This document shows, in pieces, positions 24,162 through 62,215 of a stretch of 64,000 nucleotides of DNA. The stretch is taken from the NCBI RefSeq assembly GCF_022637395.1, contig NZ_CP093339.1, positions 310,001-374,000 of the forward strand. Direction: 5' to 3'. Positions within the stretch are counted from its first letter, which is position 1. Each line of letters begins with the position of its first letter. Origin of the DNA: Shinella sp. H4-D48. Lineage in GTDB: Bacteria; Pseudomonadota; Alphaproteobacteria; Rhizobiales; Rhizobiaceae. The notes under the pieces were generated by a model. It did not search any database and was not told where the DNA came from. It saw nothing but the letters and a program-made list of their open reading frames with translations. A program made the translations under genes and the position numbers.

Positions 24162-24857
24162 TCAGACTGTGAGGTGCTGGCGTGCCTCTTTCGTATCGAG
24201 CGTTTCGGCCGCGCCTTCATGCACGATCTCACCGCGATCCATGATGTAGACGTGGTCGGCGAGCTCGCGGCAGAAATCGAGATATTGCTCGACAAGCAGG
24301 ATGGCCATGCCGGTGGAATCGCGCAGGTAGCGGATCGCCCGGCCGATATCCTTGATGATCGAGGGCTGGATGCCTTCGGTCGGTTCATCGAGAACGAGGA
24401 TTTTCGGCCGTGTCACCAGGGCCCGGCCGATGGCAAGCTGCTGCTGCTGGCCGCCCGAGAGATCGCCGCCGCGCCGACCGAGCATGGTGTGCAGCACCGG
24501 GAAAAGACTGAAGATCTCGTTGGGAACGAAGCGCTCCGAGCGCTTCAGTGGCGCATAGCCGGATTCGAGATTTTCCTTCACAGTCAGCAGCGGAAAGATT
24601 TCTCGGCCCTGCGGTACATAGCCGATGCCCTGCTTGGCACGGTTGTAGGGCGCCATGCCGTCCAGCTTGACGTCGTTGAACCCGATGGAGCCGCCCGAGA
24701 GCGGATGCTGGCCTGTAATGGCGCGCAACAGGCTCGATTTTCCCACACCGTTGCGGCCGAGCACGCAGGTGATCTTGCCCATCTCCGCGGTCAGCGAGAC
24801 CCCGCGCAGCGCCTGCGCCGCGCCATAGTGCAGATTGGCCTTTTCGACGGTCAGCAT
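24162..24857 (-). CDS. urtE: Urea ABC transporter ATPase UrtE
   Basis: This 231-residue LivF-type ATPase has Walker A GRNGVGKSS, signature LSGGQQQQLAIGRAL and the UrtE-typical LDEPTEGIQPSIIKDIG. It is the last gene of the complete urtABCDE order, 4 bases after urtD. Together with UrtD it energises high-affinity urea uptake through UrtBC. Confidence 0.96.
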   Translation of the reverse strand: MLTVEKANLHYGAAQALRGVSLTAEMGKITCVLGRNGVGKSSLLRAITGQHPLSGGSIGFNDVKLDGMAPYNRAKQGIGYVPQGREIFPLLTVKENLESGYAPLKRSERFVPNEIFSLFPVLHTMLGRRGGDLSGGQQQQLAIGRALVTRPKILVLDEPTEGIQPSIIKDIGRAIRYLRDSTGMAILLVEQYLDFCRELADHVYIMDRGEIVHEGAAETLDTKEARQHLTV

Positions 24858-24861
24858 GGCC

Positions 24862-25626
24862 TCATCTCCCCAGATAGTTCTCGATCACCTTAGGATCGGC
24901 GCTGACGAAATCGATCGAGCCTTCAGCCAGGACAGAGCCTTCGGCCAGGCACGTCACCTTCACGCCAAGATCCCGGATGAAACCCATGTCATGCTCGACC
25001 ACCACCACCGAGCGTGTCTTGGCGATTTCCTTCAGAAGGAGCGCCGTTTCCGTCGTTTCCGCATCTGTCATGCCCGCAACGGGCTCGTCGACCAGAAGCA
25101 GTTCGGGCTCCTGCGCCAGCAGCATGCCGATCTCCAGCCATTGCTTCTGGCCGTGGCTGAGATTGGCGGCGTAGTCGTCCTTGCGGTTGGTGAGACGCAC
25201 GGTGGAAAGGATCTCTTCGATGCGTGCCTTGTCCTCGGCGGTCAGGCGATAGAACAGCGTGGAGAACACGCCGCGCTTGCGGTTGAGCGCCAGTTCCAGA
25301 TTGTCCCAGACCGTATGGCTTTCGAACACCGTCGGCTTTTGGAACTTGCGGCCGATGCCGAGTTGGGCGATCTCCGCCTCGTCCTTCTGGGTGAGGTCGA
25401 CCGCGCCCTTGAAAAAGACCTCGCCCTCGTCGGGACGCGTCTTGCCGGTGATGATGTCCATCATCGTCGTCTTGCCCGCGCCGTTCGGGCCGATGATGGC
25501 GCGCAGTTCGCCGGGCTCGATGACAAAAGAGAGCGAATTGAGCGCCTTGAAGCCATCGAAGGAAACGGAGACGCCGTCGAGATAGAGGATGCTGGTGGGC
25601 TTGGCATTACTTGCGAGCGTGTTCAT
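24862..25626 (-). CDS. urtD: Urea ABC transporter ATPase UrtD
   Basis: This LivG-type ATPase has GPNGAGKTTMMDIITG, the UrtD-typical LSHGQKQWLEIGMLL in place of LSGGQ, and LLLVDEPVAGMTDAET. ATG at 25626 follows GGAG with 8-base spacing and gives 254 residues; a GTG at 25635 is possible. It overlaps or abuts urtC, indicating coupled translation. Confidence 0.95.
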   Translation of the reverse strand: MNTLASNAKPTSILYLDGVSVSFDGFKALNSLSFVIEPGELRAIIGPNGAGKTTMMDIITGKTRPDEGEVFFKGAVDLTQKDEAEIAQLGIGRKFQKPTVFESHTVWDNLELALNRKRGVFSTLFYRLTAEDKARIEEILSTVRLTNRKDDYAANLSHGQKQWLEIGMLLAQEPELLLVDEPVAGMTDAETTETALLLKEIAKTRSVVVVEHDMGFIRDLGVKVTCLAEGSVLAEGSIDFVSADPKVIENYLGR

Positions 25627-25631
25627 GGTCG

Positions 25632-26792
25632 TCACTCCGCCGCCTGGGGTTCTGCTGCAAGGGCTCGTGCCGCCTCGGCCTGCCGGGCCTTGTGGTAGTC
25701 CCGCCGGCGCTCGATGACCTGCCGGGCGGTGCCGACGATGCCCTTGGGCAGGAACAGCGTGACGAGAACGAACAGGCCCCCGAGCGCGAAGAGCCAGAAT
25801 TCCGGGAAGGCGGCGGTGAAGATGCTCTTTCCGCCGTTGACGAGGATCGCACCGACGATCGGGCCGATCAGCGTGCCGCGTCCCCCGACCGCCGTCCAGA
25901 TGACGACCTCGATGGAATTTGCCGGCTCGAACTCGCCCGGATTGATGATACCGACCTGCGGAACATAGAGCGCGCCGGCGACACCTGCCATCATGGCCGA
26001 GACCGTGAAGGCGAAAAGCTTCATGTGCTCCACACGGTAGCCGAGGAAGCGGGTCCGGCTTTCGGCATCGCGCACACCGATAAGGACCTTGCCGTATTTC
26101 GAGCGCACGATGCCGGACGTGATGACCAGCGAGAGGGCGAGAGCGATGGCCGAGGCCGCGAAGAGCGCCGAGCGCGTACCGTTCGACTGGATGCTGTAGC
26201 CGAGGATATCCTTGAAGTCCGTGAGGCCGTTATTGCCGCCGAAGCCCATGTCGTTGCGGAAGAAGGCAAGCAGGAGGGCAAACGTCATCGCCTGCGTGAT
26301 GATGGAGAGATAGACGCCGTTGACGCGCGAGCGGAAGGCGAACCAGCCGAAGACGAAGGCGAGCAGGCCCGGAACAAGAACCGCCATCAGCGCGGCAAAC
26401 CAGAACATGTCGAAGCCATGCCAGAACAACGGAAGTTCCTTCCAGTTGAGGAAGACCATGAAATCCGGCAGCAACGGGTTTCCGTAGGAGCCGCGCGCGC
26501 CGATCTGGCGCATCAGATACATGCCCATGGCATAACCGCCGAGCGCGAAGAAGGCGGCGTGGCCGAGCGAAAGGATGCCGCAGAAACCCCAGACCAGATC
26601 GAGCGCCAGCGCCAGCAGCGCATAGGTGAGATACTTGCCGAACAGCGAGACGATATAGGTGGGGATGTGCAGCGGGTGGTCCGGCGCCGTCATGAGGTTG
26701 AGGGCGGGAACAAGGGCCGCGATCACCAGCAGCAGTGCCGTGACCCAGACGATATTGCGGTCTAGCGCCTTGAGGACAAATGAGGTGATCAT
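25632..26792 (-). CDS. urtC: Urea ABC transporter permease UrtC
   Basis: This 386-residue LivM-type membrane protein includes CGILSLGHAAFFALGGYAMG and the FGGNNGLTDFKDILGY segment typical of UrtC. The start overlaps the urtB stop by 4 bases. It forms the urea channel with UrtB. Confidence 0.95.
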   Translation of the reverse strand: MITSFVLKALDRNIVWVTALLLVIAALVPALNLMTAPDHPLHIPTYIVSLFGKYLTYALLALALDLVWGFCGILSLGHAAFFALGGYAMGMYLMRQIGARGSYGNPLLPDFMVFLNWKELPLFWHGFDMFWFAALMAVLVPGLLAFVFGWFAFRSRVNGVYLSIITQAMTFALLLAFFRNDMGFGGNNGLTDFKDILGYSIQSNGTRSALFAASAIALALSLVITSGIVRSKYGKVLIGVRDAESRTRFLGYRVEHMKLFAFTVSAMMAGVAGALYVPQVGIINPGEFEPANSIEVVIWTAVGGRGTLIGPIVGAILVNGGKSIFTAAFPEFWLFALGGLFVLVTLFLPKGIVGTARQVIERRRDYHKARQAEAARALAAEPQAAE

Positions 26793-28420
26793 GCTTCCAC
26801 CGCCCTTCCCTTGAGTGCGAAGAGCCCCCGTGGCCGCTTCTGGATGAAGAGGATGATCAACACGAGCACGAGGATCTTGCCGAGCACCGCGCCCGCATAG
26901 GGCTCAAGGAACTTGTTGAGGATGCCGAGTGTGAAGGCACCGACGAGCGTTCCCCAGAGATTGCCCACGCCGCCGAAGACCACGACTATGAAACTGTCGA
27001 TGATGTAGCCCTGGCCGAGATTGGGCGAGACATTGTCGATCTGGCTGAGCGCGACACCGGCAATGCCTGCGATGCCGGAGCCGAGCGCGAAGGTGAGGGC
27101 ATCCACCCAGGGCGTCTTGATGCCCATGGAAGAGGCCATGCGGCGGTTCTGGGTGACGGCGCGCATCTGCAGCCCCATTGGCGTCTTTTTGAGCAGGAAC
27201 AGCAGAAAGGCGAAGACCGCGAGGGAGAAGACGATGATCCACATTCGGTTCCAGGTGATCGTCATGCCGCCGAGATCGAACGCCCCGGACATCCAGGATG
27301 GGTTGCCGACTTCCTGGTTGGTCGGCCCGAAGATCGAGCGCACGGCCTGCTGGAGGATGAGCGACACGCCCCAGGTGGCGAGAAGGGTTTCGAGCGGCCG
27401 ACCGTAGAGAAAGCGGATGATGCCGCGCTCGATGGCGAGGCCCACCACGCCGGTCACGATAAAGGCGAGCGGCAGCGCGATGGCCAGCGACCAGTCGAAC
27501 AGGCCGGGGAAGGACGTGCGGATGATCTGCTGGACCACGAAAGTGGTGTAGGCGCCGAGCATCACCATCTCGCCATGCGCCATGTTGATGATGCCCATCA
27601 CGCCGAAGGTGATTGCAAGGCCGATGGCAGCCAGCAGCAGAACGGAGCCGAGCGACAGGCCGTACCAGATGTTCTGTCCGGCGGCCCACAGCGCCTGCCG
27701 GTCCTCGATCTGCTTAATGCCGGCCTCGATATCGGGCCGCAGGCTCTCATCGGCGGTGGCAAGAGCCGACGACAGCAGCGAAAGCGAGTCACGGCCGCCG
27801 GTCTCGACCACCGTCGCGACCGCCGCCTTCTTCTCGTCGACCGGAAGGTCCGAAACGAGTACGGACGCTGCACGGGCCTTTTCGAGCACAGCCCGAACGG
27901 CGCCGTCGGTCTCGGCAGCGAGGACGGTATCGAGGCCATCGAGTGCGTCGGCCGAAGGGGTGCGCAGGATCGTGTTTGCCGCCTGAAGACGCACGCCTGT
28001 CTCGGGGCTCATCAGCGTCAGGCCGCCGAGCGCGGCGCGAATGGTACGGCGCAGGCCGTTGTTGACCTTGATTTTCTCCAGCGCTGCCTTGGCCTCTTCG
28101 CCGGCCGTGTCACCCGTCAAAGCGTCGATCAGCATGAAATTGGAACCGGCCGGCTTGACGATGAAGACGGTGCCATCGGTCTTGCGCTGGTACAGATCGC
28201 CCTCCGAGAGCGCTTCCAGAGCCGGGACGATCTTCGGATCGCCGGTCTTCGCCAGTGCTTCCACCTGCTTCTGGCTCTGCTGAAAATTGCCGCCGCCGAG
28301 CGCGTTGACCATGGCGCGCAGGTCGTCGGCCGCCCTCAGATCGGTCGCAAGCATCGTCACCATCACGCAGAATGCGACGAGCAGGCATTGCAGGAATCGG
28401 TGGATGAGCCGCGCGTGCAT
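26789..28420 (-). CDS. urtB: Urea ABC transporter permease UrtB with periplasmic N-terminal extension
   Basis: This 543-residue protein starts with a signal/anchor segment (residues about 9-30), followed by about 220 helical, repeat-like residues (KVEALAKTGDPKIVPALEAL) that should be periplasmic. The LivH-type permease occupies about 255-535 (ITFGVMGIINMAHGEMVMLG, GSGIAGIAGVALSQ). The extension is characteristic of proteobacterial UrtB compared with plain LivH. It lies downstream of urtA across a 109-base gap with a stem-loop. Confidence 0.95.
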   Translation of the reverse strand: MHARLIHRFLQCLLVAFCVMVTMLATDLRAADDLRAMVNALGGGNFQQSQKQVEALAKTGDPKIVPALEALSEGDLYQRKTDGTVFIVKPAGSNFMLIDALTGDTAGEEAKAALEKIKVNNGLRRTIRAALGGLTLMSPETGVRLQAANTILRTPSADALDGLDTVLAAETDGAVRAVLEKARAASVLVSDLPVDEKKAAVATVVETGGRDSLSLLSSALATADESLRPDIEAGIKQIEDRQALWAAGQNIWYGLSLGSVLLLAAIGLAITFGVMGIINMAHGEMVMLGAYTTFVVQQIIRTSFPGLFDWSLAIALPLAFIVTGVVGLAIERGIIRFLYGRPLETLLATWGVSLILQQAVRSIFGPTNQEVGNPSWMSGAFDLGGMTITWNRMWIIVFSLAVFAFLLFLLKKTPMGLQMRAVTQNRRMASSMGIKTPWVDALTFALGSGIAGIAGVALSQIDNVSPNLGQGYIIDSFIVVVFGGVGNLWGTLVGAFTLGILNKFLEPYAGAVLGKILVLVLIILFIQKRPRGLFALKGRAVEA

Positions 28421-28529: not shown

Positions 28530-29822
28530 TCAGGAGCCCTTGCCGCCGCACTTGCCGGTGGCGACGTTGAAGTTGCCGCATTCCATGGGCTTGCGCCAAT
28601 CGGCGATCAGGTCCTTGGAATCAGGCAGGAAGTCCGACCACTCGTCGCCGACGACGAGGCCGGGCGTTTCCCAGACGGTCTCGAACTGGCCGTCGGTCTG
28701 GATTTCGCCGATCAGCACCGGCTTGGTGATGTGGTGGTTCGGCATCATGGTAGAATAGCCGCCCGAAAGGTTCGGCACGGAAACGCCGATCATCGCGTCG
28801 AGCACGGCGTCCGTATCGGTGGTGCCTGCCTTCTCGACGGCCTTCAGCCACATGTTGAAGCCGATATAATGGGCTTCCATCGGGTCGTTGGTGACGCGCT
28901 TGTCGTTCTTCGTGAAGGCCTGCCACGTCTTGATGAACTCGGCATTCGCCGGGTTGTCGACGGACTGGAAGTAATTCCAGGCGGCGAGATGACCGACGAG
29001 CGGGCCGGTGTCGAGGCCGGCAAGTTCTTCCTCACCCACGGAGAAGGCGACGACAGGGATATCCTCAGCCTTGACGCCCTGGTTGCCGAGTTCCTTGTAG
29101 AAGGGAACATTGGCGTCACCGTTTATGGTCGAAACCACGGCGGTCTTCTTGCCCGCCGAGCCGAACTTCTTGATGTCGGAGACGATCGTCTGCCAGTCGG
29201 AATGACCGAAGGGCGTGTAGTTGATCATGATGTCCTCGGCGGCGACGCCCTTGGACTTCAGGTAGGCTTCGAGGATCTTGTTGGTCGTGCGCGGATAGAC
29301 ATAGTCGGTGCCGGCAAGCACCCAGCGCTCGACGCCTTCGTTCGCCATCAGGTAGTCGACGGCGGGAATGGCCTGCTGGTTCGGTGCCGCACCCGTGTAG
29401 AACACGTTGCGCTGGCTTTCCTCGCCCTCGTACTGGACGGGGTAGAAGAGGATCGAGTTCAGTTCTTCGAACACCGGAAGCACGGACTTGCGCGACACCG
29501 ACGTCCAGCACCCGAAGACGGCCGAAACCTTGTCGACCGAGACCAGCTCACGGGCCTTTTCAGCGAAAAGCGGCCAGTCGGAAGCCGGGTCGACCACGAC
29601 GGCTTCGAGCTTCTTGCCCAGAAGGCCGCCCTTCTTGTTCTGCTCTTCGATGAGCATCAGCATGGCATCCTTGAGCGTCGTCTCGGAAATCGCCATGGTG
29701 CCGGAAAGCGAATGCAGGATGCCGACCTTGATGGTGTCGTCGGCAGCGAATGCGCCGTGGAAGGCTGTCGTGGAAAGAATGGCTGCAAGCAATGCGCCGG
29801 TGGCGCGCCTCTTGATGGACAT
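28530..29822 (-). CDS. urtA: Urea ABC transporter substrate-binding protein UrtA
   Basis: This 430-residue protein has a signal peptide (residues 1-27, ending GAFA) and UrtA hallmarks: KVGILHSLSGTMAISE, FGCWTSVSRKSVLPVFEE, LFYPVQYEGEE and YFQSVDNPANAEF. It binds urea (or short amides in relatives) in the periplasm. GAGGGG precedes the ATG. It is the first gene of the urt operon and diverges from the NCS1-like histidine kinase gene, which probably senses a related nitrogen compound. Confidence 0.97.
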   Translation of the reverse strand: MSIKRRATGALLAAILSTTAFHGAFAADDTIKVGILHSLSGTMAISETTLKDAMLMLIEEQNKKGGLLGKKLEAVVVDPASDWPLFAEKARELVSVDKVSAVFGCWTSVSRKSVLPVFEELNSILFYPVQYEGEESQRNVFYTGAAPNQQAIPAVDYLMANEGVERWVLAGTDYVYPRTTNKILEAYLKSKGVAAEDIMINYTPFGHSDWQTIVSDIKKFGSAGKKTAVVSTINGDANVPFYKELGNQGVKAEDIPVVAFSVGEEELAGLDTGPLVGHLAAWNYFQSVDNPANAEFIKTWQAFTKNDKRVTNDPMEAHYIGFNMWLKAVEKAGTTDTDAVLDAMIGVSVPNLSGGYSTMMPNHHITKPVLIGEIQTDGQFETVWETPGLVVGDEWSDFLPDSKDLIADWRKPMECGNFNVATGKCGGKGS

Positions 29823-29920
29823 GGTCTGAACCCCTCTGTTCGTTTGACCGCAACGGGGCGGATTGGTTGTTTTTGGCCGTTGCTGCGGGAACTATCCGAC
29901 AGGCATGCTGCGCTGCACAT

Positions 29921-29936
29921 ACGTCATATTGCGTAG
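29921..29936. promoter_or_regulatory. TACG...CGTA near-palindrome between urtA and the histidine kinase gene
   Basis: TACGTCATATTGCGTA is symmetric at 12 of 16 positions (6 of 8 pairs). TAC/GTA-type inverted sites are common for NarL/LuxR-type response regulators, and such a regulator is encoded at 33419. The site lies 99 bases upstream of urtA and 116 bases upstream of the kinase gene, so it could serve both promoters. Confidence 0.4.
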
Positions 29937-30051: not shown

Positions 30052-33000
30052 ATGGCCGCACGCCAGCGCATCATACCGATCCGCCGCGAATACAATCGCT
30101 GGGTCGCCAACCAGACGCTGGAAGACTACGCTCTGCGTTTCACCGCAAAGAGTGCGCGCCGGTTCTCGTCCGACCGCATCTCCCAGACCGCCATCGGCGC
30201 GATTTCCTTCCTGGCGCTGGAGGCAATCGGCGGTGCGATCACAATGTCCTATGGCACCACCAACGCCATCGTGGCGATCCTCGTCGCCAGCCTGATGATC
30301 CTCGTGGTCGGCCTGCCGATCAGCCGCTACGCCATCCGCCACGGCGTCGATATCGATCTTCTGACGCGCGGTGCAAGCTTCGGCTATATCGGCTCCACCT
30401 TGACCTCGCTGATCTATGCGAGCTTCACCTTCATCCTGTTTGCCATCGAAGCGTCGATCATGTCCGGCGCGCTCGAGCTCGCGCTCGGCCTGCCGCTGTG
30501 GATCGGCTACATCATATCGTCCATCGTGGTGATACCGCTTGTCACCCACGGCGTGCAGCTCATATCGCGCTTCCAGCTGGTCACCCAGCCTTTCTGGATC
30601 GTGCTCAACGTCCTGCCCTTCGTGTTCATCGCCTTTGCGGACTGGCAGAAGGTGGGCGAATGGCTTGCCTATTCGGGCCTGCATCATCCCTCCGGACCGC
30701 CTGGAACCTATGCGCCCTTCAACCTCGTGGAGTTCGGCGCGGCCTCGGCCGTGATATTCGCTCTGATGGCGCAGATCGGCGAGCAAGTCGATTTTCTGCG
30801 CTTCCTGCCGCCGGACGGGCAGCGCAAGCTGCATCACCGCATCGCCGTCTTCCTTGCCGGTTCCGGCTGGGTCATCGTTGGCGCGCCGAAGCTCATCGCG
30901 GGCTCCTTCCTCGTCGTGCTGGCGCTGTCATCGGGCGTGCCTTCGACCCGGGCAGCAGATCCTGCACAGATGTACTACACGGCCTTCGGCTACATGCTAC
31001 CGTGGGACATGGCGGCGCTCCTGCTGATGGTCGCCTTCGTGGTGGTGTCGCAGCTCAAGATCAACGTGATGAACGCCTATGCCGGGTCGCTCGCCTGGTC
31101 GAACTTCTTCTCGCGCCTCACCCACAGCCATCCCGGCCGCGTTGTCTGGCTGGTCTTCAACGTCGCGATCGCTCTGCTCCTGATGGAGCTCGGCATCTAC
31201 CGGCTGCTGGAGGAAACGCTCGGGGTGTTCTCCATCATTGCCATGGCGTGGCTTTGCACCATTTCGGCGGACCTCTTCCTCAACAAGCCGCTTGGACTGT
31301 CGCCGCCCGGAATCGAGTTCAAGCGGGCGCATCTTTACGACATCAATCCTGTCGGCCTCGGCGCCATGACGCTGTCGGCGGTGATCGCGCTGACCGCCCA
31401 TTTCGGCACGTTCGGCGAGATCGCGGCCTCGCTCGCGCCCTATATCGCCGCCATCGTCGCCTTCATTGCCTCGCCGCTTATCGCCTGGGCGACGGGTGGA
31501 AAATACTACCTCGCCCGCAAGCCGCGCCGAAGCTGGGCGCTTGAACAGTCCATTACCTGCTCGATCTGCGAACATCCCTTCGAGCCCGAGGACATGGCCT
31601 GGTGCCCGGCCTATGCAGCGCCGATCTGTTCGCTCTGCTGCTCGCTCGACAGCCGCTGCCACGACCTGTGCAAGCCGAAGGCACGGTTCAATGCTCAGAT
31701 TGCGGGCGTTGCGAAAACCATCTTGCCCGAGACGGCGGTGCGCGCTCTCGGCACGAGGCTCGGCCGCTACGGCATCGCCGCCGTTCTTTCCATCGCGGGC
31801 ATGGGCGTCATCCTTGCCATGATCGCCCATCAGGTCGGGACCCACTCCCCGGAAACAGCGGCCGTGGTGGAGCGCACCATTGCCGTCGTCTTCTTTGTCT
31901 TTGCAGTAGTCGCTGGCGTGGTCTGCTGGTTCTACGTGCTTGCCCATGACAGCCGGGTGGTGGCGGAGGAGGAGTCCTCCCGTCAGACCACGCTTCTTCT
32001 CAAGGAAATCGCGGCACACAAGAAGACGGACGCCGCCCTCCAGCAGGCGAAGGAAGCGGCCGAGTCGGCCAATCGCGCCAAGAGCCGCTATGTCGTGGGC
32101 CTGAGCCACGAGCTGCGCACGCCGCTCAATGCCGTGCTCGGCTATGCGCAGGTGCTGGAACGCGACGAAAGCATCCCGCCGCAGCGCCAGAACGCCATCC
32201 GCGTCATCAAACGCAGTGCCGATCACCTTTCCGGCCTCATCGACGGCCTGCTCGATATCTCCAAGATCGAGGCCGGCAAGCTGCAGGTCTATTCCAACGA
32301 GATCCATCTGCCCGATTTTCTCGACCAGATCGTCGAGATGTTCCGACCGCAGGCGCAGGCCAAGGGTGTGGCCTTCGAACACACGCGCCCGCCGAACCTT
32401 CCGCGCTATGTGCGCACGGATGACAAGCGGCTGCGCCAGATCCTCGTCAACCTTGTTTCCAATGCGCTGAAGTTTACCGATCAGGGCGCAATCCGCCTCG
32501 ATGTCGCCTATCGCAGCCAGGTCGCGACCTTCACCGTCAGCGACAGCGGCCAGGGCATTCAGGAAAAGGACCTGTCGCGCATCTTCGAGCCGTTCCAGCG
32601 CGGCGGCGCCGAGCACGGCCGCATGCCTGGCCTTGGTCTCGGCCTCACCATCACGCGCCTCCTAACCCAGACGCTCGGCGGGGAAATCTCCGTCACGAGC
32701 GAATGGGGCAGGGGCACGGAATTCCGCGTCCGCCTGATGCTGTCGGCCATCGATCGCCCGGCGGCCCCGAAGGACGCCGTGCAGCGCATCAAGGGTTACA
32801 GGGGCCCGCGCCGCACCATTGTTGTCGTCGATGATAATACGGACCACCGCAACCTCATGGAGGAGGTCTTGCGCCCGCTCGATTTCACGGTGCTCACCGC
32901 AAAGAGCGGCGAGGAATGCCTGTCGCTCGTCGAGGGGCTGAAGCCCGATATGTTCCTCGTTGATATCTCCATGCCCGGCATGAACGGCTGGGAGCTGGTC

Positions 33001-33426
33001 GAGCGCCTGCGCGCGCAGGCCCAGTCCGCTCCTGTCATCATGCTTTCCGCCAATATCGGTGATGGCTCGACGGCCCATTCAGGCCACAACGACATGCTGG
33101 CAAAACCCTTCAATCTGCGGGAGCTCACCGACAAGCTCGCCCTCCAGATGGGCCTCGACTGGATCTATCACGACGATGCGGCGGCGGACGATCGCTCGAA
33201 AACCAGCATCGTCATTCCGGAGGAAGACCATGTGCGCGAGCTGATCCGCCTTGGCGAGATCGGCTATATCAGAGGCATCGAGGCCAAGCTCGCCGAAATC
33301 GCCGGCGTGCCGGAACATCAGCCCTTTGCGGAAGCCGTACGCGCCTATGTTCAGGTTTTCGACCTCGCCGGCTATGATGCCTTCCTGAAAACCATGGATC
33401 GGAAAGACGCCGCTGCCCGTGACTGA
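30052..33426 (+). CDS. Hybrid histidine kinase with NCS1-like transporter sensor domain and cysteine-rich linker
   Basis: The continuous 1124-residue protein has an N-terminal polytopic domain (about 40-490) resembling NCS1 purine/cytosine/allantoin permeases (GAISFLALEAIGGAITMSYG, VVSQLKINVMNAYAGSLAWS). Residues 503-540 contain eight cysteines (503, 506, 518, 526, 529, 530, 536, 540), likely a metal site. Two more membrane segments (about 570-595, 608-632) lead into HisKA with His686 (LSHELRTPLN), an ATPase domain (N-box 800-804, GLGLGLTITRLL) and a receiver with Asp971 and Lys1018. The layout parallels CbrA, whose sensor is an SSS transporter, but the transporter family differs. Position beside urtA suggests sensing of urea, allantoin, purine or hydantoin. 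Confidence 0.9.
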   Translation: MAARQRIIPIRREYNRWVANQTLEDYALRFTAKSARRFSSDRISQTAIGAISFLALEAIGGAITMSYGTTNAIVAILVASLMILVVGLPISRYAIRHGVDIDLLTRGASFGYIGSTLTSLIYASFTFILFAIEASIMSGALELALGLPLWIGYIISSIVVIPLVTHGVQLISRFQLVTQPFWIVLNVLPFVFIAFADWQKVGEWLAYSGLHHPSGPPGTYAPFNLVEFGAASAVIFALMAQIGEQVDFLRFLPPDGQRKLHHRIAVFLAGSGWVIVGAPKLIAGSFLVVLALSSGVPSTRAADPAQMYYTAFGYMLPWDMAALLLMVAFVVVSQLKINVMNAYAGSLAWSNFFSRLTHSHPGRVVWLVFNVAIALLLMELGIYRLLEETLGVFSIIAMAWLCTISADLFLNKPLGLSPPGIEFKRAHLYDINPVGLGAMTLSAVIALTAHFGTFGEIAASLAPYIAAIVAFIASPLIAWATGGKYYLARKPRRSWALEQSITCSICEHPFEPEDMAWCPAYAAPICSLCCSLDSRCHDLCKPKARFNAQIAGVAKTILPETAVRALGTRLGRYGIAAVLSIAGMGVILAMIAHQVGTHSPETAAVVERTIAVVFFVFAVVAGVVCWFYVLAHDSRVVAEEESSRQTTLLLKEIAAHKKTDAALQQAKEAAESANRAKSRYVVGLSHELRTPLNAVLGYAQVLERDESIPPQRQNAIRVIKRSADHLSGLIDGLLDISKIEAGKLQVYSNEIHLPDFLDQIVEMFRPQAQAKGVAFEHTRPPNLPRYVRTDDKRLRQILVNLVSNALKFTDQGAIRLDVAYRSQVATFTVSDSGQGIQEKDLSRIFEPFQRGGAEHGRMPGLGLGLTITRLLTQTLGGEISVTSEWGRGTEFRVRLMLSAIDRPAAPKDAVQRIKGYRGPRRTIVVVDDNTDHRNLMEEVLRPLDFTVLTAKSGEECLSLVEGLKPDMFLVDISMPGMNGWELVERLRAQAQSAPVIMLSANIGDGSTAHSGHNDMLAKPFNLRELTDKLALQMGLDWIYHDDAAADDRSKTSIVIPEEDHVRELIRLGEIGYIRGIEAKLAEIAGVPEHQPFAEAVRAYVQVFDLAGYDAFLKTMDRKDAAARD

Positions 33427-34333
33427 GACAGCCATCCCCCGCGACATCGTCCTTCTCGTCGACGATTCCCCCGAGGCCCTGGGCTTCCTGACGGAGGCGC
33501 TGGAGCAATCCGGCTTCTCCGTGCTGATCGCTACATCCGGCGCGTCGGCACTCAACATCGTCAGCCGCATCACCCCCAACATCATCCTGCTCGACGCCGT
33601 GATGCCTGGCATGGATGGCTTCGAGACCTGCCTGAAGCTGAAGGCCGACCCCGCCATCAGCCCCGTTCCCGTCGTCTTCATGACCGGCCTGACGGAGACC
33701 GAGCATGTGGTGCGGGCGCTGGAATCGGGCGGCGTCGATTACCTGACCAAACCGATCAATATCGACGAGCTGCGGGCGCGCATCCGCGTGCATCTCACCA
33801 ATGCCCGCTCCGCCCAGAGCGCGCGCGTGGCGCTTGATGCCGCAGGGCGACACCTCCTGGCAGTCAGCAGCGAGGGCAAGATCCGCTGGTCGACACCGCA
33901 GGCGACCCGGCTGGTCAATGCCGCGACGGGCAGCGACGAGGGGCTCGACGTCGTCTCGGACCATATCCGCAACTGGATGAAGATGCGCGGCACGAACCGC
34001 GAAACCACTTTCGTCATCCGCCAGCCAGGGCAGGCAAGCCTGCAACTATCCTTCCTCGGCAGGATCGATGCGGATGAGTTCCTCTTCCGCCTGACGGCAG
34101 AAAGCCGTCTGTCCGACGATGAGATCCTGCGCCAGCACTTCTCGCTCACGCACCGCGAATCCGAGGTCCTGTTGTGGATCGCGAAGGGCAAGTCGAACCG
34201 CGACATCGCCGAAATCCTGGGCCTCAGCGCCCGCACGGTCACCAAGCACCTGGAGCAGATTTACGTGAAGCTCGGCGTCGAAAACCGTGCTTCCGCCGCC
34301 GTGAAGGCCGCGAACGTTTTGCACGAAATTTAG
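33419..34333 (+). CDS. Response regulator with LuxR/NarL-type DNA-binding domain
   Basis: This 304-residue protein has an N-terminal receiver (DDSPEALG, phospho-acceptor Asp59 in IILLDAVMPGMDG, Lys in YLTKPI) and a C-terminal LuxR HTH at about 235-300 (LTHRESEVLLWIAKGKSNRD, LSARTVTKHLEQIYVKL). The roughly 100-residue middle segment is not a family I recognise and may be a degenerate PAS fold. The GTG start overlaps the kinase stop by 8 bases, so they are a coupled pair. Probable targets include urtA and the following porin-like gene. Confidence 0.93.
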   Translation: MTETAIPRDIVLLVDDSPEALGFLTEALEQSGFSVLIATSGASALNIVSRITPNIILLDAVMPGMDGFETCLKLKADPAISPVPVVFMTGLTETEHVVRALESGGVDYLTKPINIDELRARIRVHLTNARSAQSARVALDAAGRHLLAVSSEGKIRWSTPQATRLVNAATGSDEGLDVVSDHIRNWMKMRGTNRETTFVIRQPGQASLQLSFLGRIDADEFLFRLTAESRLSDDEILRQHFSLTHRESEVLLWIAKGKSNRDIAEILGLSARTVTKHLEQIYVKLGVENRASAAVKAANVLHEI

Positions 34334-35334: not shown

Positions 35335-36300
35335 CTAGTCGTCCGCCCGGGCTTCGAAGGCCCTCGCTCGATATTCTCCCGGCGGTAGGCCGAAATGGGA
35401 CTTGAAGGCACGGGAGAACTGGGTCTGGTCGCTGAAGCCCCAGCTGTAGGCGATCTCGGCGGCAGTCTGCACATTGCCGGGATCCGCCAGCGCCTCGCTG
35501 CACGCAGAAAGCCGCTGGATGCGTATCCAGTTGCGGACCGTGTCACCCGTATCTCTGAAAAGCTCGTGCATGTAGCGGGTGGAGATGCCGCAGGCGCGGG
35601 CGATACGCTCTGGGTCGAGGCGGAAATCCTGGAGATGGGCGCGAACATAGGTCTCGACGCGGGCGAGATGGGCGCTGCGCACCGTCGAGTTGCCTGATGT
35701 CAACACGCGGTCATCCGCCTTGATCGCAAGAACAAGCAGATCGACAAGCTGGCGGCCGACCGTCGTGCGCGCTTCCTGGGTCATGCCATCGAAGCGCGCG
35801 GGCAGGAGGTGCAGCATATCGGTAAACAGGCCGCCGGCACCATTGTTGGCCTCGAATTGCAGGGTACAGAAGCGGTCCGGCGCGCGCATGCGTCCGCCAA
35901 GCGCCTCCGCCTCGACCTCGAGCACCCACATGTCGGCCGCCTCCGAATGGCTGAACTGGTAGGGCTCGCTGCTGCGCTCCAAGAAGAAGCCGCCAGGCCG
36001 GCACGTCATCTCGCGGCCGCCTTGGGAAAAGAACACTTCCGCATTCGCAGGCACCGTCACGAGGAATTCCTCGTCCCTCGCGGCGCGGAAGTGATGCGGG
36101 AGGCGCAGATATTGCAGGGCATCGCAGGTCAGCCGCGAAATCGAGACGTCGCCAAACTGCCATGTCGTCAGGTCGCCTGAAAAACGGTCGGCCTCGCGAA
36201 AGCGCAGGTCGAGCGGGAAGTAGGCCGAGGCGATGGCCTCGTGCCAGTGGCGGCTGCGGTCCGGTGCGCGTGTCGCGCTTGTGGTAATGCTCGTCTTCAT
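35335..36300 (-). CDS. AraC-family transcriptional regulator
   Basis: From ATG at 36300, preceded by GAGGGAAA, the product is 321 residues. The N-terminal half is an AraC_binding_2-like cupin region (PANAEVFFSQGGREMTCRPG). The C-terminal 100 residues hold two HTH motifs (RIARACGISTRYMHELFRDT and AAEIAYSWGFSDQTQFSRAF). FeaR-like activators share this plan. It diverges from hyuB and is the likely activator of hyuBA. An in-frame upstream extension lacks a ribosome-binding site. Confidence 0.9.
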   Translation of the reverse strand: MKTSITTSATRAPDRSRHWHEAIASAYFPLDLRFREADRFSGDLTTWQFGDVSISRLTCDALQYLRLPHHFRAARDEEFLVTVPANAEVFFSQGGREMTCRPGGFFLERSSEPYQFSHSEAADMWVLEVEAEALGGRMRAPDRFCTLQFEANNGAGGLFTDMLHLLPARFDGMTQEARTTVGRQLVDLLVLAIKADDRVLTSGNSTVRSAHLARVETYVRAHLQDFRLDPERIARACGISTRYMHELFRDTGDTVRNWIRIQRLSACSEALADPGNVQTAAEIAYSWGFSDQTQFSRAFKSHFGLPPGEYRARAFEARADD

Positions 36301-36366
36301 GCGGCTTTCCCTCTTCGTTAAAAGGTATGCACATGATGTCTGCCAGGCAACGAAAATGGCAGCTTG

Positions 36367-36380
36367 TGCGCTCGAGCGCA
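36367..36380. promoter_or_regulatory. 14-bp perfect palindrome in the AraC-hyuB divergent region
   Basis: TGCGCTCGAGCGCA is a perfect palindrome in the 241-base divergent region, 67 bases from the AraC start and 162 from the hyuB start. AraC proteins often bind direct repeats rather than palindromes, so its owner is uncertain. I see nothing else distinctive in 36301-36541. Confidence 0.35.
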
Positions 36381-36541
36381 AACCGTTGTTCGCCTCCTGC
36401 AAAGACCGGACCGGAAATCTCTGCCTAGATTGAGCCCGGCTTCAACGGTGCGACAGACACCGGCGGCCCAGGGAACAGACATTTCAGCTACGCGAACGGT
36501 TTCCAGGCCGTCGGTTCTCGCCCTCAACCAGCGTGAACACG

Positions 36542-38302
36542 ATGCTCCATACCCAGACTTCCAAGGTGGACCCGATCACCCTTTCGGTGGTGCGCGGCAT
36601 GCTCGAGACGACACAGCGCGAAATGACGCTTGCGCTGGAGAAAACGGCCCGCTCGTCGGTCTTCAACCTGGCGCACGATTATTCGACGGCGCTGTTCAAT
36701 GCCCGGCCGGAGATGATCCTCCAGGGGCAGGACATTCCGATCCATCTCGGCTCGCTCATTCCCGCCATGAAGGCGGTTGCGGCCTTCTTCGGCGACGATA
36801 TCCACGATGGCGACCTGATCCTGCACAACGATCCGGCCTTCGGCGGCAGCCACGCCATCGATACCTGCATGTACAAGCCGGTCTTCTACAAGGGTGAACT
36901 GGTCTACTGGACCGTCTGCAAGGGTCACCTTACCGATATCGGCGGGCCGGTGCCGGCGGGATACAACCCCAATGCCACGGAAATCTACGCAGAATGCCTG
37001 CGCATTCCGCCGGTGAAGATCTGGGATCGCGGCAAGCCGCGCCATGACGTGCTGAACATGATCCTGACCAACATGCGCGCCCGCCGCGATCAGGAAGGGG
37101 ACTTCCGCGCCCTGATCGGCGCCTGCCAGGTGGGGGAACGCAACCTTCTCGCCATGCTCGAAAAATATGGCAAGGAGCAGGTCGATGCCTGCGTCGATAC
37201 CCTGCTCGACATGGCCGACAAGCATATGCGCGCGCTGATCGCCACGGTGCCGGACGGCACCTATGAGGGGGCCGCCATTCTGGAGGATGCCGGCCACGGT
37301 TTCGGCGATTTCGAGATCAAGGCGACGGTGACGATCGATGGCGACGCTTGCCATATCGCCATCGATAGCCCGCCACAGATTCCGTATTTCATCAATTCCT
37401 ACGAGGGCAATTCCCATTCCGGCGTCTATCTGGGCCTGATGATGTTTGCGGCTCTGCCGCCGCCCTACAATGAAGGGCTTTATCGCTGCGTCAGCCTCGA
37501 TTTCGGGCCGAAAGGCACGCTCTGCAATGCGCAGGAGCCCGCACCGCACATGAACTGCACGACGACGCCGATGGAAACGCTGACGGACGCCGTGCGTCTC
37601 GCCTTCGAGAAGGCGGTGCCGTCGCGCGTCTCGGCCTCATGGGGACATGCCAACGGCCTCAACATCGCCGGCCGCGATTCCCGCACCAACGAGGAGTTCG
37701 TGACGATGGTGCTGGCCACCATCATTTCCGGCGGCGGCGCGACACCCAAGCAGGATGGCTGGCACGCTGTCGGCCCGGAATGCTGCTTCGGCGCCTTGAC
37801 CTCCGGCGACGTGGAACTGCTTGAATATTCCTATCCCATCGTCATCCATCGCTATTCGCTGATGACCGATTCCGGCGGCGCCGGTAAATTCCGCGGCGGC
37901 TCCGGCACGGCCTGGGAAGTCGAGCCCCTCAATGGCGATATGCTGTGCATCGGCTTCGGTGAAGGGCGGCGCATTCCGGCGATGGGTGCTGCGGGCGCGA
38001 CATCCGCCATGGTCGATACCAAGGTCGGCCGGGTGGAGCTGCGCCGTGACGGCGCGGTGCAGGTCGAGCGCAAGAACATCATCGAGACCATCAAGCCCGG
38101 CCAGACGATCACCAATCTCAATCCGGGCGGCGGGGGCTTCGGCAACCCGTTCGAGCGGCCGGTAGAGAAGGTCGTTTCCGATGTGCGCAACGGCCTCGTT
38201 TCTCTCGAAGGCGCGCGGCTCGACTATGGCGTGGCCATCGTGAGCCTCGAGACTCTGGACGTCGACGCCGCCGAGACCGAACGGCTCAGAACCGCTGTTT
38301 AA
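36542..38302 (+). CDS. hyuB: Hydantoinase B/oxoprolinase-family subunit
   Basis: This 586-residue product (589 from a GTG at 36533; neither start has a clear ribosome-binding site) has the HyuB plan: DPITLSVVRGMLETTQREMT at the start, LILHNDPAFGGSHAIDTCMY, and SGGAGKFRGGSGTAWEVEP. HyuA/HyuB pairs carry out ATP-dependent opening of hydantoins, 5-oxoproline, caprolactam or related lactams and also occur in acetophenone carboxylase. Substrate specificity cannot be read out. It precedes hyuA by 11 bases. Confidence 0.93.
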   Translation: MLHTQTSKVDPITLSVVRGMLETTQREMTLALEKTARSSVFNLAHDYSTALFNARPEMILQGQDIPIHLGSLIPAMKAVAAFFGDDIHDGDLILHNDPAFGGSHAIDTCMYKPVFYKGELVYWTVCKGHLTDIGGPVPAGYNPNATEIYAECLRIPPVKIWDRGKPRHDVLNMILTNMRARRDQEGDFRALIGACQVGERNLLAMLEKYGKEQVDACVDTLLDMADKHMRALIATVPDGTYEGAAILEDAGHGFGDFEIKATVTIDGDACHIAIDSPPQIPYFINSYEGNSHSGVYLGLMMFAALPPPYNEGLYRCVSLDFGPKGTLCNAQEPAPHMNCTTTPMETLTDAVRLAFEKAVPSRVSASWGHANGLNIAGRDSRTNEEFVTMVLATIISGGGATPKQDGWHAVGPECCFGALTSGDVELLEYSYPIVIHRYSLMTDSGGAGKFRGGSGTAWEVEPLNGDMLCIGFGEGRRIPAMGAAGATSAMVDTKVGRVELRRDGAVQVERKNIIETIKPGQTITNLNPGGGGFGNPFERPVEKVVSDVRNGLVSLEGARLDYGVAIVSLETLDVDAAETERLRTAV

Positions 38303-38313
38303 GGAACACAGAC

Positions 38314-40395
38314 ATGACCATGCATTCCTACCGTCTCGGCATCGATGCCGGCGGCACCTTCACCGACTTCGTCATTGCCGACCGTGCGACCGGTGAGGTC
38401 AAGCTGTTCAAGGCGCTCTCCACACCCTCCGACCCCACCAAGGCCATCGAGAACGGTCTTGGCCTGATCGCCGCCGATCTCCAGCGGCCGATCGAGGAGA
38501 TCATCGCCAATTGCGACCTGTGCATCAACGGCACGACGGTCGGCCTCAATGCGCTGATCACCCATCGCGGCGGTCGCACGGGTCTGATCTGCACGGCCGG
38601 GCACGAGGACTCCATCGAGATCCGCAACGGCCACAAGGAAGACGGCTTCCGCTACGACCCCGATTATCCCGCCGCCACGATGCTCGTCCCGCGCTATCTG
38701 CGCCGCGGCATTCGCGAACGTGTGCTGTCGGACGGTTCCGTGCGCACGCCGCTGCATGAGGAGGATGTGCGCGAGGCCTGCCGGCTCTTCCTGAAGGAGG
38801 GGGTCGAGACCGTCGCCATCTCCTTCGTGTGGTCGGTGCTGGACCCATCACATGAGCGGCGCGCGGCCGAAATCGTGCGCGAGATGATGCCGGATGTCGT
38901 GCTGACCGTCGGCAGCGAGCTTTACCCGCAGGTGCGCGAATACACCCGCACGTCGACGGCGGTCACGAACGCCTATCTCGCTCCCGTCATGCGCCGGTAC
39001 ATCACCGCGGTCGATGCCTATTTCCGTTCGCTCGGCGCCAGACAGCCGGTGCGCTACTTCCAGTCCAATGGGGGGCTTGCCATCGGGCAGGTCATGAGCG
39101 ACCGCTCCGTCTACGCCATCAATTCCGGCCCGGCTTCCGCGCCGCAGGCGGGGCTCTATGCCGGCGCGCCGTTCGGCCACAAGAACGTCATCACCGTCGA
39201 TATGGGCGGCACGTCCTTCGACATCACGCTCACCCGCAACGGCCAGACCAACCTCAACAAGAACATCGACTTCCTGCGCTACCGCATCGGCGTGCCGATG
39301 ATCCAGGTCGAGACGCTCGGCGCCGGTGGCGGGTCGATCGGCTGGGTGGACCCGCTCGGCCTTCTCCAGGTCGGCCCCCAATCGGCCGGTTCCGAGCCGG
39401 GTCCGGCCTGCTATGGCCGGGGCGGAGCGGAACCCACGACTTCGGACGCCAATCTCGTGCTCGGCTATCTCAACCCCGCAGGCCTGCTTGGCGGCAAATT
39501 GCCGCTCGACGTGGAGAAGGCGCGGGCGGCCGTGGCGCGGGTCGCAGAACCGCTCGGCATCTCCACCGAGCAGGCGGCCTATGGCATGTTCGCCATCGTC
39601 AACAACAACATGGTCAACGGCATCAGGCGCGTTTCTGTCGAGCGCGGCTACGACCCGCGCGATTTCGTCCTCGTCGGGGCAGGGGGCGCGACGGCCGCCC
39701 ATATCACGGCGCTGGCGCGTGAAATGGGTATCGACACGATCATCCTGCCCAAGCTCGCCTCCGGTCTCTGCGCCTTCGGCCAGATCATCTCCGACGTGAA
39801 ATACAACTACATGGCCCCGGCCCCGGTAAGGCTCGACAACCCAGCGAGCTACGCGCGTATCGACGCCCTGTTCAAGGAGATCGAGGCAAAGGGTGTCGCC
39901 CATCTCGAGGCCGACGGTTTCGCCGCCGACGCGATCGACATCCGCCGTTCGCTCGACATGCGCTATGTCGGCCAGGTGCATGAATGCACCGTGGATATCG
40001 GCACGTTCCCGATCGACGAAAACACCATCGAAAAGGTCAAGGACGCTTTCCACGCGCGGCATGAGGAGCTTTATACCTATGCCGAACGGCACAGCACGGT
40101 GGAGGTGGTGAACATCGAATCTACCATCTACGGCCGTATCGAGAAGGTACGGCCGCCGACGCTGGTGACGGGCGGCGACGCTGCGGCCGCGCTGAAGGGG
40201 CATCGCGACGCGATCTTCGAGCAATCTGGAAAGGTCACGTCCACGCCTGTTTACGATGGTGCAAAGTTCGGCGCCGGCGCCCGCATCCAGGGCCCCGCCA
40301 TCATCGAGGAGGTGACGACGACCATCGTCATCGAGCCGGGCTGGACGAGTGTGCTGCACGAAAGCGGCAGTTACCTGCTGACACGCGAACAGTGA
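38314..40395 (+). CDS. hyuA: Hydantoinase A/oxoprolinase-family ATP-binding subunit
   Basis: This 693-residue protein has the ASKHA-type phosphate-binding LGIDAGGTFTDFVIAD, INGTTVGLNALI, ITVDMGGTSFDITL and LVGAGGATAAHITALAREMG. It supplies the ATPase half of the HyuAB lactam/hydantoin hydrolase. Length is normal for HyuA. It is convergent with the LysR gene, with a GC-rich hairpin between them. Confidence 0.94.
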   Translation: MTMHSYRLGIDAGGTFTDFVIADRATGEVKLFKALSTPSDPTKAIENGLGLIAADLQRPIEEIIANCDLCINGTTVGLNALITHRGGRTGLICTAGHEDSIEIRNGHKEDGFRYDPDYPAATMLVPRYLRRGIRERVLSDGSVRTPLHEEDVREACRLFLKEGVETVAISFVWSVLDPSHERRAAEIVREMMPDVVLTVGSELYPQVREYTRTSTAVTNAYLAPVMRRYITAVDAYFRSLGARQPVRYFQSNGGLAIGQVMSDRSVYAINSGPASAPQAGLYAGAPFGHKNVITVDMGGTSFDITLTRNGQTNLNKNIDFLRYRIGVPMIQVETLGAGGGSIGWVDPLGLLQVGPQSAGSEPGPACYGRGGAEPTTSDANLVLGYLNPAGLLGGKLPLDVEKARAAVARVAEPLGISTEQAAYGMFAIVNNNMVNGIRRVSVERGYDPRDFVLVGAGGATAAHITALAREMGIDTIILPKLASGLCAFGQIISDVKYNYMAPAPVRLDNPASYARIDALFKEIEAKGVAHLEADGFAADAIDIRRSLDMRYVGQVHECTVDIGTFPIDENTIEKVKDAFHARHEELYTYAERHSTVEVVNIESTIYGRIEKVRPPTLVTGGDAAAALKGHRDAIFEQSGKVTSTPVYDGAKFGAGARIQGPAIIEEVTTTIVIEPGWTSVLHESGSYLLTREQ

Positions 40396-61753: not shown

Positions 61754-61756
61754 TCC

Positions 61757-62215
61757 GTGTCCGACCTGAGGCCCATCTTGCTGGTTGAAGACAATCCCCG
61801 AGATCTGGAATTGACATTGACGGCACTGGAGAAGTGTCAGATCGCCAACGATGTCATCGTTGCACGCGACGGTGCCGAGGCGCTGGATTTCCTGAACCTC
61901 GAAGGCGCATTTGCCACGCGCGAACCGGGTGATCCGGCCGTCGTGCTGCTGGACCTGAAACTGCCGAAGGTCGATGGACTGGAGGTGCTCGCCAAGGTGA
62001 AGGGCGACACGAACCTGCGCCATATTCCCATCGTCATGTTGACATCCTCCCGCGAGGAGCAGGATCTCGTCAACAGTTACGAACTCGGGGTCAACGCCTT
62101 CGTTGTGAAGCCGGTCGAGTTCAGCCAGTTTTTCAAGGCGATCCAGGACCTTGGCGTGTTCTGGGCGCTGCTCAACGAGCCGCCGCCTAAGTCCCGGCAG
62201 CGTGGCGGGAGCTGA
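61757..62215 (+). CDS. Single-domain response regulator (Rcp1-like)
   Basis: This 152-residue receiver has Glu11/Asp12, phospho-acceptor Asp66 in VVLLDLKLPKVDG and Lys in FVVKPVEF. Its extended C-terminus and position immediately after bphP match phytochrome-associated Rcp1-type regulators. With no output domain it probably acts through protein contacts or phosphotransfer. GTG at 61757 is the start, 3 bases after the bphP stop. Confidence 0.94.
   Translation: MSDLRPILLVEDNPRDLELTLTALEKCQIANDVIVARDGAEALDFLNLEGAFATREPGDPAVVLLDLKLPKVDGLEVLAKVKGDTNLRHIPIVMLTSSREEQDLVNSYELGVNAFVVKPVEFSQFFKAIQDLGVFWALLNEPPPKSRQRGGS

Follow-up and report, generated by a model that had tools for sequence, protein, structure and literature searches.

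The window analysed here, a stretch of 64,000 nucleotides from Shinella sp. H4-D48 (contig NZ_CP093339.1, positions 310,001 to 374,000), harbours a gene for a hybrid histidine kinase whose membrane domain appears to be a diverged permease of the NCS1 family (LeuT superfamily) acting as sensor. We consider it likely that binding of urea or formamide to this domain would trigger a phosphorelay to the adjacent LuxR-type response regulator which, in turn, would control the urea transporter operon urtABCDE. Since the gene adjoins the uptake and breakdown genes of these two compounds in many Proteobacteria, the kinase is probably the means by which these bacteria detect them. This view rests on the comparison of sequences and of gene neighbourhoods.

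Kinase frame and sensor domain

From the ATG at position 30052 to the stop codon ending at 33426 the frame reads through 1124 residues without interruption, as the initial annotation had stated, and the HisKA, ATPase and receiver domains which it had named are placed within residues 677-1029 by Pfam, where HisKA, HATPase_c and Response_reg all score above their curated cut-offs. The phospho-acceptor His686 and the receiver Asp971 are present and are kept in 40 aligned full-length relatives; with these three domains and both residues the protein is a hybrid histidine kinase. The polytopic transporter-like domain, likewise proposed before, is recognisable from hydropathy as about 12 segments within residues 43-485, followed by two more in residues ~570-637 (overlapping peaks were merged by eye). 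As close loci we took the best 80 of 573 confirmed relatives, which by their record titles belong to Rhizobiaceae or nearby groups; together with three plasmid records they yielded 83 frames. In all 83 the fused frame is intact (1121-1136 residues), which excludes a sequencing artefact, and the fusion is also intact in other orders and classes. Separate genes for transporter and kinase, named beforehand as the finding that would speak against a genuine fusion, were looked for in the class, phylum and order scans and not seen: no match of at least 450 bits falls into an open frame shorter than 730 residues, and the shortest frame sits at a contig end. Plasmid records of S. oryzae and S. sumterensis reach 98% protein identity to the window (records of its own genome possibly being left out).

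Some relatives deviate in layout. Two formamidase-linked kinases (L158:3346-7156 and L159:3398-7347) comprise 885-894 residues; in L158 the C-terminal receiver is absent and the next frame encodes a protein of 416 residues (receiver-HisKA-HATPase), i.e. a different relay architecture, and L323 and L324 resemble the type of L158 and L159 by context. The kinase open frames of L149 and L153 (1789 and 1901 residues, respectively) begin 500 residues or more ahead of the usual start, which may reflect an extra domain or merely an open frame.

The sensor domain lies below the detection limit of curated family models. Neither Pfam nor NCBIfam yields a match above cut-off in residues 1-573; PF02133 (Transp_cyt_pur) matches neither the window kinase nor any of 21 N-terminal domains, nor anything else in the whole window genome; NCBIfam, TIGR00800 included, finds nothing in the N-terminal domain, and the SSS model PF00474 has no match in the window kinase. 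As single-sequence comparison by hhalign with CodB (probability 12.8, N-terminal half only), AllW, PutP and ActP was uninformative, family profiles were compared instead. Profile A1 was built from 21 close sensor domains (residues 1-573 region) and profile A3 from 52 diverse ones, while the controls comprised 12 PF02133 proteins plus CodB and AllW for NCS1 and 11 PF00474 proteins plus PutP and ActP for SSS. The NCS1 control proteins were picked by Pfam and not by resemblance to the kinase, two PF02133 proteins found by A1 being excluded. A3 aligns with the independent NCS1 profile over 389 columns (hhalign probability 98.9, E 2.8e-17), whereas its comparison with the SSS profile gives a probability of 6 and E 0.006; matched against each other, the two controls reach a probability of 82.6 and E 9.6e-6. 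These values support the assignment of the sensor domain to an outlying branch of NCS1, as a remote homologue, rather than to SSS. In addition, A1 finds three free-standing proteins (E 4e-32, 8e-10 and 3e-9), two of which pass PF02133 and the third of which resembles TIGR00800 below its cut-off; for the one at L155, which passes PF02133 with 35.9 bits, comparison with the family profile gives E 4.3e-33. The NCS1-like character postulated in the initial annotation is thus borne out as remote homology beyond the reach of Pfam and NCBIfam, and with it the claim of a transporter family different from the SSS domain of CbrA; an SSS domain or a generic sensor in its place was looked for by profile comparison and not found.

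The binding pocket was mapped onto Mhp1 by chaining the alignment of A3 with L217 to that of L217 with Mhp1, a procedure in which register errors of one residue are possible. On this basis E133 corresponds to Gln121, N341 to Asn318, L129 to Trp117 and K336 to Ser312 (to Ser312 or Thr313 in both registers considered). In Mhp1, Gln121, Asn318 and Trp117 touch the hydantoin ring (PMC4195764; the papers cited by PMC number are represented here by extracts). Compared to that pocket, the Asn is kept, Gln is exchanged for Glu, Trp for Phe (37 of 52 domains) or Leu (15 of 52) and Ser312 for Lys, and E57, E133, K336, N338 and N341 are invariant in all 52 sensor domains. Ser312 of Mhp1 we take to be a ligand of the Na2 site, and an invariant lysine at this position argues against Na+ coupling. 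The three free-standing relatives, too, show Glu at the position of E133 and Arg or Lys at that of K336 (alignment read by eye). Mean identity to the window amounts to 86% for the NCS1 domain, 89% for HisKA, 78% for HATPase and 68% for the receiver in the close loci, and to 58%, 65%, 55% and 41%, respectively, in 40 distant ones. As the identity of the NCS1 part falls between those of HisKA and HATPase, its conservation speaks against a role as mere anchor.

Behind the permease domain, eight cysteines in residues 498-546 are invariant in all 33 aligned sequences. Used by itself as a profile (E up to 1e-4), this module finds 42 places, distributed over 38 of 299 genomes. Each lies in an open frame of 894-1247 residues and hence of kinase-frame size, the scan having scored only 23 first-look candidates in many genomes. 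Judged by these matches, the module is specific to this kinase family within the sampled genomes.

One of the free-standing NCS1 relatives (L155:2784-7370) is followed by a nitrilase-type protein and by a UrtA-like binding protein scoring below the UrtA cut-off; this gene group is a possible amide or nitrile uptake operon.

Gene neighbourhood and promoter palindrome

The scans with A1 gave matches in 14 of the 240 genomes searched at class level, in 45 of 199 at order level and in 55 of 398 at phylum level; the sets overlap, and the last one includes a few weak or partial matches. Outside the window genome, the distinct matches of at least 450 bits from these scans make up 100 other places, five of which, at 74-81% identity, are close relatives. 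Each of the 100 was read, with flanks as far as the contig permitted, and the names of neighbouring genes rest on NCBIfam matches of the query genes. In the window, urtA is oriented divergently to the kinase gene, with 229 base pairs (bp) between the two, and its identification by TIGR03407 confirms that the kinase lies beside it, as had been claimed. All 80 close loci and 92 of the 100 other places have a match to the regulator within the stretch that was read. Urea-type urtA is in view in 76 of the 80 close loci (not in L007, L008, L010 and L018), and UrtA, the formamidase FmdA or the urease proteins UreC or UreG are encoded in the fetched stretch at 94 of the 100 other places, of which 55 are formamide-type and 39 urea-type, the nearest start of such a gene being at most 6.4 kb away (median 0.26 kb). 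By our own estimate, which assumes a span of 20 kb, a few relevant loci and a 5-Mb genome and comes without a control run, such a neighbourhood would arise by chance at roughly a few percent per locus. Because urea or formamide genes recur at 94 of 100 places, the probable ligand is narrowed to one of these two compounds. The nitrogen-ligand sensor suggested in the initial annotation is thereby strengthened, but its list of ligands only in part: urea fits the context, allantoin, uracil and hydantoin are without contextual support, and formamide had not been foreseen.

L177 additionally carries urea carboxylase and allophanate hydrolase. UrtA of the formamide setting also scores as UrtA in NCBIfam. 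In Pseudomonas, urtABCDE of this type has been linked to fmdA and suggested to take up formamide (PMC13209695), and a urtABCDE operon with two-component genes stands next to fmdA in locus-tag order in a further report, the extract of which leaves a permease domain unmentioned (PMC13296017). The two settings form clusters in a quick tree of 62 domains, of whose 59 inner branches 21 are weak: the urea setting requires 6 changes among 58 labelled rows, and none of 500 shuffles (0/500) gives a number as low. The four rows without a setting were excluded from this two-state count, and the label urea was given to all nine close rows, L007 included, which shows no urt gene in view. The 62 rows, which were compiled without the last 48 of the 100 places, also served for a search of alignment columns. 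Its column 402 holds Gly in 28 of 29 formamide rows and a residue other than Gly in five of six urea clades; picked post hoc from ~600 columns, it is not claimed here. Five genomes (G383, G447, G468, G593 and G757) each harbour one formamide-type and one urea-type copy and would, if the proposed function holds true, constitute a natural experiment for studying the discrimination between urea and formamide by a permease pocket.

The intergenic region of urtA and the kinase gene contains the 16-bp palindrome TACGTCATATTGCGTA, of the form TACG-N8-CGTA, at distances of ~106 bp to the start of urtA and ~124 bp to that of the kinase gene; we propose it as a candidate operator. A site counts as in range if it lies no more than 450 bp upstream of the start of urtA, the kinase gene or fmdA, or within the first 60 bp of one of these genes, limits which were set after the first sites had been seen. 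The pattern occurs 82 times in the 80 close loci; 78 of these sites satisfy the limits with respect to urtA or the kinase gene, and the four loci without an in-range palindrome (76 of 80 have one) are the same four without urtA in view. For 34 of the close-locus sites urtA is the only gene in range, which would be expected of a palindrome belonging to the urt promoter. An in-range palindrome is further present at 69 of the 100 other places (78 of 85 sites in range); the share is 39 of 55 for the formamide setting, 27 of 39 for the urea setting and 3 of 6 for places without an assigned setting. The spacer provides a cleaner control than the positional limits: when it is varied at these 100 places, a length of 8 gives 78 near sites and each other length from 2 to 14 gives 0 or 1. 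L177 displays a further palindrome ~78 bp before the allophanate hydrolase gene. CrbR, the LuxR-type regulator of an SLC5 kinase, requires an imperfect inverted repeat (PMC5715377).

Table 1. Features of the window, with positions counted from its first letter
Feature	Position	Strand	Basis
NCS1-fused hybrid histidine kinase, 1124 residues	30052..33426	+	frame, Pfam, intact in close loci; S. meliloti orthologue SMb20609 by coordinates
NCS1-like membrane domain, residues 41-490	30172..31521	+	profile-profile match, hydropathy
8-cysteine module, residues 498-546	31543..31689	+	8 invariant Cys, module profile scan
Extra transmembrane helix pair, residues ~570-637	31759..31962	+	hydropathy
HisKA, residues 677-742, His686	32080..32277	+	PF00512
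HATPase_c, residues 790-897	32419..32742	+	PF02518
Receiver domain, residues 923-1029, Asp971	32818..33138	+	PF00072
Likely cognate response regulator, receiver and LuxR-type helix-turn-helix, 8-bp overlap with kinase end	33419..34333	+	PF00072, PF00196
Palindrome TACGTCATATTGCGTA, proposed operator between urtA and kinase	29920..29935	.	TACG-N8-CGTA pattern scans
urtA, urea ATP-binding cassette (ABC) transporter binding protein	28530..29822	-	TIGR03407 above cut-off
urtB	26789..28420	-	TIGR03409 above cut-off
urtC	25632..26792	-	98% match to annotated urtC of L083
urtD	24862..25635	-	98% match to annotated urtD of L083
urtE	24162..24857	-	97% match to annotated urtE of L083

UrtB of the window (26789-28420) has ~248 additional N-terminal residues ahead of the TIGR03409 match at 249-539. 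Downstream of the kinase/regulator pair, positions 36533-40395 encode the beta and alpha subunits of a caprolactamase (NCBIfam equivalogs above cut-off) beside an AraC/FeaR-like regulator (35335-36402); among the loci compared, caprolactamase genes adjoin the kinase only in L083, apart from a weak 26-32% match in L171.

Proposed signal path and competing explanations

We infer the steps from ligand to DNA as follows. Urea (in the window genome) or formamide (in other branches) would occupy the substrate pocket of the NCS1 domain, and the bundle/hash movement which drives transport in Mhp1 would be relayed via the 8-cysteine module and the helix pair to the kinase. His686 would then hand phosphate to Asp971, from which it would reach the neighbouring receiver-LuxR regulator; the latter is predicted to bind TACG-N8-CGTA and to activate or repress urtABCDE or the formamide set as well as its own kinase/regulator pair. 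A wider proposition, which in our judgement could equally prove right or wrong, is that of an unrecognised, widespread proteobacterial family of urea/formamide receptors in which an NCS1 permease serves as kinase input, the Na2 site is occupied by a lysine and the amide-binding position by a glutamate, with about six switches between urea and formamide and a dedicated TACG-N8-CGTA regulon.

Several observations weigh against the proposed role. At 6 of the 100 other places none of UrtA, FmdA, UreC and UreG was found; L164, L168 and L291 border on the end of a contig, but the flanks of L174, L176 and L279 are complete. The exact palindrome is missing at 31 of the 100 places, 10 of which have a version with one mismatch (for which there is no chance control). 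A relaxed form of the palindrome is present three times in the window genome, once of these in the urtA/kinase promoter, versus six times for the reversed control, and therefore has little genome-wide predictive value; the other two relaxed sites look like chance (surroundings read for one, L210). RpuR, a regulator of related type, requires a direct repeat and not a palindrome (PMC9100948). Searching the PDB by hmmsearch with A1 and A3 returned no transporter or NCS1 structure, and matches of A1 to mini-G proteins, which cover ~50 residues, were taken as chance. An AlphaFold model from 45 close sequences turned out too poor to inform on fold or pocket (predicted local distance difference test 46.2, predicted template modelling score 0.39) and was not used. 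In S. meliloti, PhaR binds and controls the promoter of SMb20609, a gene called functionally uncharacterised, from a site at pSymB 1622073, 95 bp upstream (PMC12542648). Our match to the kinase starts at pSymB 1622168, i.e. at the position of this site plus 95 bp, which identifies SMb20609 as the orthologue; control by PhaR points to carbon or polyhydroxybutyrate status as an additional input that a purely urea-dedicated role leaves unexplained. Finally, CbrA is reported to be able to dispense with its transporter domain in signal perception (PMC9100948).

The last-mentioned precedent would suit a signal path in which the NCS1 domain is an anchor or flux partner, the 8-cysteine module senses a cytoplasmic metal or redox state and the urea genes are merely output. 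The invariance of all eight cysteines in 33 of 33 sequences and the matching of the module only in kinase-sized frames agree with it; yet E133, N341 and K336, which map to the pocket, are invariant in 52 of 52 domains, and the identity of the NCS1 domain at the distant loci (0.58) nearly attains that of the cysteine module (0.65), compared to 0.41 for the receiver, and we consider such a path rather improbable. Possible, though in our opinion doubtful, is a full transceptor which also imports urea or formamide in a proton-coupled manner and reports this uptake. The NCS1-like core aligns nearly end to end, histidine binding and proton-driven uptake have been described for CbrA (PMC13022988), and the residues at 336 and 133 need not abolish transport because the free-standing relatives share them (Lys/Arg and Glu, respectively); a dedicated ABC importer, however, already adjoins the kinase at most places.

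Very unlikely as ligand is a classical NCS1 substrate such as hydantoin, allantoin, uracil or cytosine. NCS1 homology and the caprolactamase (hydantoinase-like) genes 3 kb downstream in the window would accord with one, but those genes accompany the kinase only in L083 (with the weak match in L171) while urea or formamide genes recur at 94 of 100 places, and Trp117 and Gln121 of Mhp1 are replaced by Phe/Leu and Glu. An ordinary hybrid kinase with a generic multi-helix sensor and a spurious likeness to NCS1 would explain why Pfam and NCBIfam are silent on residues 1-573 and why the PDB holds no transporter match; we deem it exceedingly improbable in view of the match to Pfam-selected NCS1 proteins (E 2.8e-17, 389 columns) and of that to a free-standing protein which passes PF02133 (E 4.3e-33).

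Relation to known systems

By its domain composition, the kinase is a variant, with another permease family, of transporter-fused kinases such as CbrA. Like it, the SLC5/STAC kinases CbrA, CrbS, RpuS and PrlS consist of a permease-type membrane domain fused to HisKA-HATPase, and CrbS and RpuS are likewise hybrid kinases with LuxR-type regulators (PMC9100948). Their permease domain is, however, SSS and that of the window kinase NCS1, behind which the latter has the 8-cysteine module and the helix pair (no STAC profile search was made), and their context is histidine, acetate or pyruvate instead of urea or formamide. CbrA has a LeuT-type fold, and in its structure determined by cryo-electron microscopy Lys196 fills the Na2 site (PMC13022988), which is reminiscent of K336 of the window family as placed by alignment; since the lysine of CbrA is located elsewhere in the chain, this likeness would be convergence. 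A kinase of Kuenenia stuttgartiensis fused to an ammonium transporter also combines the transporter domain of a nitrogen compound with a histidine kinase, but its domain is of Amt type and its compound ammonium rather than urea or an amide (PMC5764959). With the NCS1 permeases Mhp1, CodB and AllW the sensor domain shares remote homology over most of the membrane core and, as placed by alignment, the equivalent of Asn318 (N341), whereas it differs from them in being fused to a kinase, in escaping detection by Pfam and in the aligned exchanges at Trp117, Gln121 and the Na2 residue Ser312. Among the matches listed from open-licence PMC literature there is no dedicated urea or formamide receptor kinase.

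If the proposed function is correct, an orphan kinase/regulator pair of many Proteobacteria, including SMb20609/SMb20610 of S. meliloti, would gain a ligand, an operator and a target operon, and one more permease family would join the short list of transporter-fused kinases. A further hybrid-kinase match, containing one internal TGA stop, is situated elsewhere in the window at ~61037-62170 (G000:C3:371037-372170).

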